64,000 bases of DNA from the NCBI RefSeq assembly GCF_003590945.1, contig NZ_QYUK01000011.1, positions 4,000,909-4,064,908 on the forward strand, in the 5' to 3' direction. The notes below the pieces were generated by a model. It was not told where the DNA came from, made no database searches, and saw only the letters and a program-made list of their open reading frames with translations. This document shows positions 34,048-50,237 of the stretch, one piece after another. The translations under genes and the position numbers were made by a program. The stretch is from Oleomonas cavernae. GTDB taxonomy: Bacteria > Pseudomonadota > Alphaproteobacteria > Zavarziniales > Zavarziniaceae. Every line of letters begins with the position of its first letter. Within the stretch, counting starts at the first letter, position 1.

Positions 34048-35046
34048 ATGTCGAAGCCCCGCGTCTTTTCCGGTGTCCAGCCCACCGGCAACCTGCATCT
34101 GGGAAATTACCTGGGCGCCATCCGCAACTGGGTGAAGCTGCAGCACGACCACGAGTGCATCTATTGCGTCGTCGATCTCCACGCCATCACAGTCTGGCAG
34201 GATCCGGCCGACCTGACCCGCGCCATCCGCGAGGTCGCGGCCAGCCTGATCGCCGCCGGCATCGATCCCACGACCTCGATCCTGTTCAACCAGTCCAAGG
34301 TCTCGGCCCATGCCGAAACCGCCTGGATCTTCAATTGCGTGGCCCGCATGGGCTGGCTCAACCGCATGACCCAGTTCAAGGAAAAGGCCGGCAAGGACCG
34401 TGAGAATGCCTCGGTCGGCCTGTTCGCCTATCCCAATCTGATGGCGGCCGACATCCTGGCCTACAAGGCGACCCACGTGCCCGTGGGCGAGGACCAGAAG
34501 CAGCACCTGGAGTTGGCCCGCGACATCGCCCAGAAGTTCAACCACGACTTCGGCGTCGAACATTTCCCGGCGCCCGACCCGCTGATCTTGGGGGAAGCGA
34601 CCCGCGTCATGTCGCTGCGCGACGGCACCAAGAAAATGTCCAAGTCGGACCCGTCCGACCAGTCGCGCATCAACCTGACCGACAGTCCCGACGACATCGA
34701 ACAGAAGATCCGCCGCGCCAAGACAGATCCCCTGCCCCTGCCCGAGACGGTCGAGGAGGTGGCTGCGCGGCCCGAGGCGGCCAACCTGATGACGATCTAC
34801 GCCGCGCTGGCCGACGAGAGCCTGGCGGATGTCGTGGCCGCCTTTGCCGGCAAGCAGTTTTCGGACTTCAAGCGCGCCCTGACCGAACGCGCGGTCAGCG
34901 TGCTCTCGCCCATCACGGGCGAGATGCGCCGCCTGGTGGCCGATCCCGGCTATGTCGACGGGGTGCTGCGCCAGGGCGGCGAGCGGGCGGCGGCGATCGC
35001 CGCACCGATCCTGGCCGAGACCAAGCGGATCGTCGGCTTCCTCTGA
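34048..35046 (+). CDS. trpS: Tryptophanyl-tRNA synthetase
   Basis: This class I synthetase charges tRNA-Trp. The 332-residue protein has the HIGH-type motif HLGN at residues 17-20 ([12 protein letters not shown]) and KMSKS at 196-200. It also has the tryptophan-pocket region [14 protein letters not shown] and [16 protein letters not shown]. Length fits bacterial TrpRS. It is followed by a palindromic repeat that separates it from a convergent gene. Confidence 0.97.
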
Positions 35047-35051
35047 GTTCA

Positions 35052-35193
35052 TCCCCTCTCCGCCGCTTGCGGGGGAGAGGGAGGGGCCTGTCGCGTGAGC
35101 GACGGGAGGGTGAGGTGGTCGCGGGCACAGTCGCGCCCTAAGCCGACCACCCACCTCACCCAACCCTCTCCCCCCTTGAAGGGCGGAGAGGGC
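35052..35193. repeat. Palindromic repeat, family B copy 1 (CCTCTCC/GGAGAGG type), likely two-way terminator
   Basis: Two hairpins, CCCTCTCCGCCGCTTGCG...GGGAGAGG and CCTCTCCCCCCTTGAAGGGCGGAGAGG, flank an inner inverted pair GTGAGGTGGTCG/CGACCACCCACCTCAC. The right hairpin is followed by CTCTTTCT. The element fills the space between the convergent trpS and HTH genes. Shorter relatives are at 50193-50237 and 54373-54404. Confidence 0.85.
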
Positions 35194-35198
35194 TCTTT

Positions 35199-35708
35199 CT
35201 ACTTCTTCTTCTTCGCGACCTTCTTCGCCGGCTTGGCCGCGGCGGGCTTGGCCTTCGCCGCCTTGGTCGCGGGCTTGGCAGCAGCCTTGGCGACGGCGGC
35301 GGCGGGCTTGGCCGCCGGCTTGGCCTTGGTCACCTTCGCCACCGGCTTGGCCGAAGGCTTCGCCGCCTTGGGGGCGGGCTTGGGCGTCGGGTTGGCCGGC
35401 TTGGAGCTGGCATGCGGGATCTTGGCGAGGATCTTGGACAGCGCCTGCTCGGTCTGGTGCAGGTCGTAGGCGATCTGCTGTTCCAGCCATTCGCGGGCCG
35501 AGGTGCCGGTAACCTTGGCAATGCGGAGCGCCATGTCGGCGGTCAGATTGCGGCGGAAATTCACCAGCTGGTTGATGGTGCGGCGGGAAACGCCGGTCAG
35601 CTTCGCCAGTTGATCCTGGGTCAGGCCCAGCTTTGCCAGCACCGCATCGGCGATGTTGACGCCGGGATGAGACGGCCCGACAACCGTATTCTTGCCTTTA
35701 GCGGCCAT
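35199..35708 (-). CDS. HigA-like helix-turn-helix protein with a histone-H1-like tail
   Basis: The 169-residue protein has two parts. Residues 14-85 are a HigA/VapI-type HTH domain (HPG, GLTQDQLAKLTGVSRRTINQLV, LTADMALRIAKVTGTSAREWL). Residues 103-169 are a Lys/Ala/Pro tail with 21 lysines and no acidic residue, made of KPAAK-like repeats and ending KKVAKKKK, as in bacterial H1-like proteins and AlgP. No HigB toxin is adjacent. A nucleoid or DNA-condensing role is plausible but inferred. The start is ATG 35708. A frame-open extension upstream is less likely. The repeated tail DNA may be prone to length variation. Confidence 0.82.
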   Translation of the reverse strand: MAAKGKNTVVGPSHPGVNIADAVLAKLGLTQDQLAKLTGVSRRTINQLVNFRRNLTADMALRIAKVTGTSAREWLEQQIAYDLHQTEQALSKILAKIPHASSKPANPTPKPAPKAAKPSAKPVAKVTKAKPAAKPAAAVAKAAAKPATKAAKAKPAAAKPAKKVAKKKK

Positions 35709-35976
35709 GTGCTTCGTGCCCCCTGTCGCGTTCCGAATAGAATTTGCCCGGGCAACCACCCCGTGCGGTTCAACCGGGATTGAGGTTCCGGCGTGCTCTC
35801 GCTACCGGCAAACCCGCGCCGTTTACACCACGGCATTACATAAGGTAACCCCGATCGCACCTAAATGCCTAGACCATTTGAGTTACATAAGCAATGGATA
35901 CCGCGTTGCGGCACGACTTGACCCGGCCCGCGACCTCGTGACTATTGGCACCGATACTGCAAACCAGGGGGCGATC
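35709..35976. other. Divergent intergenic region of 268 bp
   Basis: This region separates the HTH/H1-tail gene (minus) from the DUF2333 gene (plus), so it must hold both promoters. It is less GC-rich than its surroundings, for example GAATAGAATTTG near 35736 and GAGTTACATAAGCAATGG near 35880. No consensus promoter, operator or RNA structure stood out. Confidence 0.5.
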
Positions 35977-36954
35977 ATGGCCGGCAGCAAGGTCTTCACG
36001 GAGGGTGGCGGCGGCCGTTTCAGCGGCCTGTGGCGCCGCCGCTGGGTTTGGCAAACCCTTGGAATCATTATCGCCGCGATCCTCCTGCTGTACTATCCCA
36101 TCGGCATGCTGATCGCCCACAAGGTCGACGACGACTTGTCCTTCGCGCCTGCAACATCGATGGTCCCCCCCGGTGCCAGCCGGGCCGTGGCGGTCGCCGC
36201 CGCCCTGGTCGACCGCGAGGTGAATGTGAACGGCTGGGTCGCCAACGACCCGTTCTTCTTCCCGTCGGGCGCGCTCGACAACATGCCGAACTTCCAGCAG
36301 GGCATCGTCGATGCGGTGGCGACCTTCGCCATCGAGCTGCGCGACCAGATCGGCCGCGTGCGCGGCTCGGGCGAAGTCGACAAGGACCTGGCCGAGGCGT
36401 TGAGCACCTTGCAGTACTCCGGTACCAAGTGGGTCTTCGACCTCTCCACCTCGATCCTGCCGACCGCAACCTCCGAGGCACAGTACCGCGCCGGCATTCG
36501 CGCGCTGAACGCCTACAACGCGAATGTCGCCGCCGGCAAGGCGGTGTTCGACCGGCGGGCCGACAACCTGCAGGCCGCGATCTCCCGCATCGCGCTCGAC
36601 GTCGGCTCGATCTCGGCCGCCCTCGACAAGCAGATCCGCGACGAGAGCGGCAACATCTTCGATTTCACCTGCGACGACCTGTTCTACCGAGTGAAGGGCG
36701 AGGCCTATGGCTACTTCCTGATCATGAAGGGCCTGCGCCAGGACTTCGACCAGATCATCACCGAGCGCGGCCTGGCGCCGCTTTGGGACGAAGCCATCGC
36801 CAGCCTCGAGGAGACGGCGATGTTCCATCCCATCATGGTCTGGAACGGCCAGCTCGACGGCCAGTTCCTGCCCAACCATCTGGTCGCCCAGGGCTTCTTC
36901 CTGCTGCGGGCGCGCACCCAACTGCGCGAGATCGCCGCGATCCTCGACAAGTGA
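35977..36954 (+). CDS. DUF2333-family membrane-anchored protein
   Basis: The 325-residue protein has a short basic cytoplasmic start, one membrane segment (TLGIIIAAILLLYYPIGMLIA) and a large periplasmic domain. Aromatic-rich conserved segments include NGWVANDPFFFPSGALDNMPNFQQGI, DDLFYRVKGEAYGYFLIMKGLRQDF and the C-terminal PNHLVAQGFFLLRARTQLREIAAIL. This matches the DUF2333 family, which has no known function. ATG 35977 is preceded by AGGGGG. A universal stress gene follows 49 bp downstream, so the two may form an operon. Confidence 0.82.
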   Translation: MAGSKVFTEGGGGRFSGLWRRRWVWQTLGIIIAAILLLYYPIGMLIAHKVDDDLSFAPATSMVPPGASRAVAVAAALVDREVNVNGWVANDPFFFPSGALDNMPNFQQGIVDAVATFAIELRDQIGRVRGSGEVDKDLAEALSTLQYSGTKWVFDLSTSILPTATSEAQYRAGIRALNAYNANVAAGKAVFDRRADNLQAAISRIALDVGSISAALDKQIRDESGNIFDFTCDDLFYRVKGEAYGYFLIMKGLRQDFDQIITERGLAPLWDEAIASLEETAMFHPIMVWNGQLDGQFLPNHLVAQGFFLLRARTQLREIAAILDK

Positions 36955-37661: not shown

Positions 37662-38963
37662 CTAGCTGCCGTCATCGACCGTGAAGATTTCCGTGGGCTC
37701 GCGGCGGCCGCGCAGGACGTGCTGGCCGAGTGACCGCAGGTTTCCCTCGTCGCCCAGCGTGCGGGCGAAGGCCTGGGTTGCCAGCAGCGGCCGCTCCAGC
37801 ACCTTGGTCAGGGCCTCGACCCGGGCGACCTCGTTCACGGCCGCGCCGATCACGGTGAAATCCAGCCGCTCGCTCGAGCCGATATTGCCATAGACGACGT
37901 CGCCGAAATTCAGCGCGAAGCCGACCTTCAGCCCGGCCGGCCCCAGGGCCGTCGGAAGTTCCTCGATCGCGGCGACGCCGGCCAGGGCCGCCTGCGCGGC
38001 GGCCAGCGCGCGGCGGCAGGCGTCGCCGGCCTCGCCGCCGGTCCCCGTGCCCTCGTCGGCCGGGAAGATGGCCAGGCAGCCGTCGCCCATGAACTTCAGC
38101 ACCTCGCCGCCATGGGCGTGAACCGCCAGGGTCACCACGTCGAAATAGGTATCGAGCAGGGCGATCACCTCGCCCGGCTTGGCCCGGTCCGACAGCCGGG
38201 TGAAGCCGCGCATGTCGCAGGTCATGATCGCGGCGCGGATGGTGCTGCCCTCGCCCCGCCGGACCGAGCCGGTCACCACGCGCCGGGCCGCATCACGTCC
38301 CAGGTACAGCGACAGCAGGCTGTCGAGCAGGGCGCGCTGGGCCGTGATCTCGAAGCGCATGGCCACCAGCGGCACGGCACTGTCCAGCCGGGCGAGGTCG
38401 TCGTCGGTGAAGCCGCCGGGCCGGTCGGTCGCAAAGGAGATGAACGAGCGCCTGGTGGTGGCGAAGTCGAGCGGGCGGATCAGGTAGTCCGTCGCCCCTT
38501 CGGCCGCCAGGTCTTCCAGGACGGGAAAATCATAAGGCCCCGAATGGTGTTCCAGCCGGCGGCGGAAACCGTGGGCGCCCAGGTGGATCAGGCGCACCGG
38601 GCTCCTGAGGTAGAAGTCCGAGGTCTGCACCTCAAAGCCGCGCGAGATGACCTCGACCCCCGTCTCCCGGTCCCAGACGAAGGTCCGGGCATAGATCTGC
38701 GGGTGGAGCATCAAGATGCCGGACGTCACCTTGAAGATCGGCAGGCCGGCCCTGAACAGGGTATTGGCGAATTCGCCGATCAGGTTCGGCGGGTCCAGCC
38801 GGGCGGTGGCCGCCGCCATGAGAAAGGCCGCCACCGGCCCCTCGGCGGTGCCGGCCGGCAGGGAGGGCAGGGGCCCGCGCGCCGCGATCTGGGCCGCGGC
38901 TGTCAGGGTCTCGTCCCAGATTTCGTCCTGGGGAATGGTGGTGGCGCGGGCGGGCTGTGACAT
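37662..38963 (-). CDS. Class III adenylate/guanylate cyclase with an N-terminal sensor-like region
   Basis: The 433-residue protein has a C-terminal class III cyclase catalytic domain (about residues 240-415). The metal-binding Asp is in MTCDMRGFTRLSD. The segment GGEVLKFMGDGCLAIFP supplies the substrate lysine and second metal Asp, and ERLDFTVIGAAVNEVARVE the transition-state residues. All appear intact, so it should make cAMP (a Lys/Asp-type pocket) rather than be degenerate. The first 240 residues are soluble and not clearly a named domain, perhaps GAF-like. It sits against the direction of the otherwise plus-strand cluster. Confidence 0.9.
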   Translation of the reverse strand: MSQPARATTIPQDEIWDETLTAAAQIAARGPLPSLPAGTAEGPVAAFLMAAATARLDPPNLIGEFANTLFRAGLPIFKVTSGILMLHPQIYARTFVWDRETGVEVISRGFEVQTSDFYLRSPVRLIHLGAHGFRRRLEHHSGPYDFPVLEDLAAEGATDYLIRPLDFATTRRSFISFATDRPGGFTDDDLARLDSAVPLVAMRFEITAQRALLDSLLSLYLGRDAARRVVTGSVRRGEGSTIRAAIMTCDMRGFTRLSDRAKPGEVIALLDTYFDVVTLAVHAHGGEVLKFMGDGCLAIFPADEGTGTGGEAGDACRRALAAAQAALAGVAAIEELPTALGPAGLKVGFALNFGDVVYGNIGSSERLDFTVIGAAVNEVARVEALTKVLERPLLATQAFARTLGDEGNLRSLGQHVLRGRREPTEIFTVDDGS

Positions 38964-50192: not shown

Positions 50193-50237
50193 CCCTCTCC
50201 GCCCTTCAGGGGGGAGAGGGTGGGGTGAGGTGGGTGG
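50193..50237 (+). repeat. Palindromic repeat, family B copy 2
   Basis: CCCTCTCCGCCC...GGGGGGAGAGGG forms a hairpin followed by TGGGGTGAGGTGGGTGG, as in the larger copy at 35052-35193. It lies directly before lnt, which may therefore need its own promoter. Confidence 0.8.

Follow-up and report, generated by a model that had tools for sequence, protein, structure and literature searches.

A HigA-type helix-turn-helix domain joined to a histone H1-like tail, without an adjacent toxin, in the order Zavarziniales

Introduction

A gene of Oleomonas cavernae raises the question of why a helix-turn-helix (HTH) domain of the kind found in antitoxins should carry a tail reminiscent of histone H1. The gene lies in a stretch of 64,000 nucleotides (contig NZ_QYUK01000011.1, positions 4,000,909 to 4,064,908), referred to below as the window. 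A preliminary description had traced the HTH domain to a HigA ancestor, had seen no adjacent toxin gene, and had proposed a nucleoid protein that targets an H1-type tail to specific sites. The integrity of the gene, its distribution, its surroundings and its possible DNA targets were analysed.

Results

A HigA-type HTH domain in an intact gene

The gene (35199–35708, minus strand) is translated into 169 residues from the ATG at 35708. The in-frame GTG located upstream at 35759, which would give 186 residues, was rejected as a start and is not needed, as the window protein and five full-length orthologues share the ATG and align from it. A structure model of the 169-residue protein consists of helices up to residue 96, with modest confidence (mean pLDDT 58, pTM 0.31). 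Searching with this low-confidence model, Foldseek yielded no match at E ≤ 0.001; the 19 best matches were HigA/GraA-family chains and YbaQ.

The ancestry proposed for the HTH domain (residues 12–88; 35445–35675, minus strand) was borne out by the NCBIfam HigA model TIGR02607, which matches these residues with 79.2 bits for a cut-off of 47.7. Pfam HTH_3 also matches (47.4), as do PDB chains of HigA and GraA by profile. The HTH belongs to the same family as that of the HigA/GraA antitoxins, such as Pseudomonas aeruginosa HigA (6jpi, 6lb3) and P. putida GraA (6fix). The second-best PDB match is Escherichia coli YbaQ (2eby), a HigA-like protein with the same HTH domain, the chain of which has 113 residues and therefore no room for a comparable tail. 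YbaQ is likewise an orphan, not known to have a HigB.

Within the order, residues 1–95 of the orthologues are 75–87% identical to the window protein, and dN/dS over the first 98 codons is 0.14–0.32. The base-contacting residues Thr40, Asp43 and Arg49 of HigA correspond to T44, Q47 and R53, which are invariant in the order; this equivalence assumes an ungapped offset, implied by the equal length of the matched ranges. A phage or viral origin was rejected: the best relative on a viral contig lacks a tail, and its 47% identity covers part of the domain.

A basic, disordered tail of conserved composition

The Lys/Ala/Pro tail (residues 103–169; 35202–35402, minus strand) stands out by its composition, low pLDDT and repetitive DNA. 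Its 67 residues comprise 21 Lys and no Asp or Glu; counted from residue 99, the tail has 71 residues and a net charge of +21. By comparison, the predicted proteome of the window averages 2.7% Lys, and no other predicted gene exceeds 9 Lys in a stretch of 67 residues. The structure model has a pLDDT below 50 over nearly all of the tail, which is predicted to be disordered. A long, strongly basic, disordered tail rich in Lys, Ala and Pro is what defines bacterial H1-like proteins, and the composition and charge agree with the H1-like character first ascribed to it.

In the five genomes of the order where it was measured, the tail spans about 71 to 148 residues from residue 99, that of the window being the shortest. 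All five are free of stops, contain 80–88% Lys, Ala and Pro, and have net charges of +21 to +34. The absence of acidic residues stated in the preliminary description holds for this species and not for the four other measured tails, which contain 3–10 Asp and Glu.

The DNA encoding the tail is internally repetitive, which offers slippage as a route for changes in length. This repetitiveness and the twofold difference in length between species could suggest that the tail is a functionless, neutral by-product of repeat slippage. Such an origin is already disfavoured and has very little probability left, as composition, charge and open frame persist in all seven genomes of the order, across two genera and at dS of up to 0.7. 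In a simulation of drift by simple random substitution, 0.3 substitutions per site left on average 58% Lys, Ala and Pro, 15% Lys and 1.6 stops. Since the natural tails retain both the composition and the open frame that simulated drift loses, the composition looks to be under selection, sequence and length being free to vary.

Similar tails are found on proteins of other kinds. Actinobacterial HU typically carries a PAKKA tail and has few acidic residues (PMC5683647), and Lys-rich tails bind DNA in mycobacterial HupB and HbhA (PMC10665949). In HupB and Mycobacterium tuberculosis HbhA, as here, a Lys-rich tail is carried by, or forms, a DNA-binding nucleoid protein; the difference is that these are a sequence-independent HU fold or a tail alone, in place of a HigA-type HTH. 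AlgP and PhaF of Pseudomonas have a long C-terminal domain of Lys/Ala/Pro repeats, which has been likened to histone H1 and is reported to bind DNA (PMC9239181). These tails resemble the one described here, whereas no HigA-type HTH is reported in AlgP or PhaF, the roles of which are granule spacing and regulation.

This likeness brings in the main rival to a role on DNA. The KPAA repeat domain of AlgP is required for positioning polyphosphate granules, and PhaF, with a C-terminus homologous to that of AlgP, organises PHA granules (PMC9239181). By analogy, the tail might chiefly interact with a granule or a polyanion other than DNA (polyphosphate, RNA or a PHA granule), which the protein would tether or space on the nucleoid with the HTH as a DNA anchor. 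This is rather unlikely, as neither Pfam nor NCBIfam matched a granule-binding domain such as a phasin in the protein, no granule gene is adjacent, and the HTH by itself provides a role on DNA.

A fixed locus in the order

The protein was sought in relatives, as the preliminary description had advised, and a Lys/Ala/Pro tail was found beside trpS in all seven genomes analysed for the order (six of Zavarzinia and one of a sister genus). Full-length tailed orthologues are present in four other Zavarzinia genomes and in the genome of the sister genus; they include those of Z. marina, Z. aquatilis, a Zavarzinia MAG and an alphaproteobacterial MAG. In the seventh genome (G003), a similarity search gave no clear orthologue. 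A real absence was dismissed: trpS lies there on a contig of 4932 bp, which stops 343 bp past trpS, inside the tail. The reading frame at the end of this contig contains KKAAPKKAEPKPAAKKAEPKPVAKKAAPKK and finishes with KKASKKK and a stop, so that the genome is counted among the seven. Neither of the outcomes that could have undone the initial proposal was therefore encountered, the tail being present in close relatives and being no product of a frameshift or assembly artefact, as its frame is open and its composition kept across the order. The gene encodes a real, lineage-wide two-domain protein.

The gene is flanked by trpS (34048–35046, plus strand; PF00579), which is convergent and also adjoins it in L006 and G003, and by a divergent gene for a DUF2333 protein (35977–36954, plus strand; PF10095), a homologous frame of which is found at the corresponding position in L002 and L006. 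A protein with an adenylate/guanylate cyclase catalytic domain (PF00211) is encoded nearby at 37662–38963 on the minus strand. GC-rich nested inverted repeats fill the space that separates trpS from the tail gene (35054–35192). As a related 18-mer recurs at 50210–50227, the inverted repeat may be a dispersed palindromic element. All Rfam matches in the region were below gathering scores and were discarded; most were to animal microRNA families, in a GC-rich hairpin.

Outside the order, a wider survey covered sampled and partly overlapping sets from the class (385 genomes) and the phylum (398 genomes). In other Pseudomonadota, 33 homologues were matched by profile at E ≤ 1e-14. They all stop 7–22 residues from the matched stretch, and none has a Lys/Ala/Pro tail. 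Eleven of 12 more distant relatives were checked and lack such a tail. The closest of these by identity is a 99-residue protein from a Chloroflexi MAG, the gene of which sits behind a 94-residue reading frame resembling HigB by eye. As the 33 matches outside the order are all without the tail, the fusion looks restricted to the order within the genomes searched by HTH similarity, an approach that does not reach unrelated HTH–tail fusions.

Absence of a toxin partner

In a HigBA module, HigB adjoins HigA. Here the neighbours are trpS and the DUF2333 gene, and a search of the genome with Pfam PF05015 (HigB) returned five matches, the nearest of which is 51 kb away. The lack of an adjacent toxin gene was thus confirmed, and the gene is an orphan HigA. 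Unlike the HigA/GraA antitoxins, the protein combines this lack with a tail of about 70–148 residues and a fixed chromosomal locus in the order.

The genome holds at least four HigB–HigA-type pairs, at G000:C11:4087839–4088307 (23.4 kb past the end of the window), 3160837–3161385, 1207700–1208211 and 2736569–2736942. Two further HigA-family genes (1669485–1669703 and 1882521–1882754) have no listed PF05015 match adjoining them. With an antitoxin-family HTH above the cut-off and HigB homologues elsewhere in the genome, the protein might be imagined as a lone antitoxin acting in trans against one of these toxins, the tail being incidental or a stabiliser. This is highly improbable, as the four loci where HigB matches exceed the cut-off all have a separate HigA of their own, the closest HigA tested from the same genome is only 41% identical to the tailed protein, and the orphan keeps a single fixed position in both genera.

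A candidate operator upstream of the gene

The 268-bp divergent intergenic region contains a conserved 18-bp element, TGTAACnCAAnnnGTCTA (35870–35887, minus strand), which reads TAAC-N7-GTCT. Fourteen fixed positions are identical in the six readable genomes, each of which has a single copy. In the published operators, GraA reads a TAAC half-site within AAATTAACGAATAACGTTAAGCATTCAGCT (PMC6393540), and the P. aeruginosa HigA palindrome TTAAC GTTAA contains TAAC (PMC6987408). A one-dimer footprint TAAC-N7-GTTA was derived here from the GraA operator. The element shares the TAAC half-site with these operators and has similar spacing, which makes it a candidate self-operator of the tailed HigA, a lead and not a proof, the likeness having been spotted after the fact.

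The element could instead serve another regulator or belong to the DUF2333 promoter. It is weakly palindromic, its right half-site being GTCT and not GTTA, and it is closer to the DUF2333 start (about 90 bp) than to the HTH start (about 160 bp). This alternative has considerable weight but falls short of even, as each of the six readable genomes has the element and the HTH gene together, in one copy, and a TAnnnT hexamer follows the element at a constant 21–22 bp on the way to the HTH gene, whereas no hexamer at a fixed distance was seen in the DUF2333 direction in the six aligned genomes. In the window, a possible −10 hexamer, TACCTT (35842–35847, minus strand), lies 22 bp past the element; its assignment is weak, as a promoter scan found no consensus sigma-70 promoter. 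Near this −10 region (35842–35887), five of six genomes have an inverted GTTA motif, some 32 bp beyond TAAC in the element. The motif, GGTTAC in three genomes and GTTAC or GTTAA in two more, may be a second operator half-site.

A search with a looser pattern found no conserved second target. A wider regulon was rejected, as no additional match is common to different species and several are located within reading frames. The proposed targeting to specific sites may therefore amount to little more than autoregulation, the sole conserved candidate site being the gene's own promoter, with one copy per genome.

Discussion

As the protein is free of a toxin and its tail is present in every genome analysed for the order, the tailed HigA is probably a regulator or DNA-packaging protein that has become fixed. 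On balance, we lean towards a domesticated, toxin-free HigA descendant fixed at the trpS–DUF2333 locus, acting as an autoregulating transcription factor or as a nucleoid-associated protein. The weak palindrome of the element, the lack of a conserved second target, the acidic residues in the other tails and the modest confidence of the model count against this reading.

Through the HTH half, a dimer probably contacts DNA at HigA-type sites, which would include at least the gene's own promoter and so result in autoregulation. By analogy with other polycationic tails, the disordered Lys/Ala/Pro segment would add sequence-independent DNA binding, which could raise the affinity, or bridge or locally condense DNA. 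The outcome would be a low-specificity transcription factor or a nucleoid-associated protein. In a bolder version, which we regard as doubtful, the order would have converted an antitoxin of the plasmid-addiction type into a nucleoid protein resembling a linker histone, with the HTH nucleating binding at a defined site, from which the tail would spread over or condense the surrounding DNA.

Lys/Ala/Pro tails on HU, AlgP and PhaF are already known, and so are orphan HigA-like regulators. What appears new is the joining of both parts in one protein: the literature searched for antitoxins or XRE proteins bearing a tail of this type contained no report of it. Present in a single copy throughout the lineage, and with one candidate operator in each genome, the fusion would be a clean case for the domestication of a toxin–antitoxin antidote, and the same case lets one ask what an H1-like tail gives to a sequence-specific DNA-binding protein.
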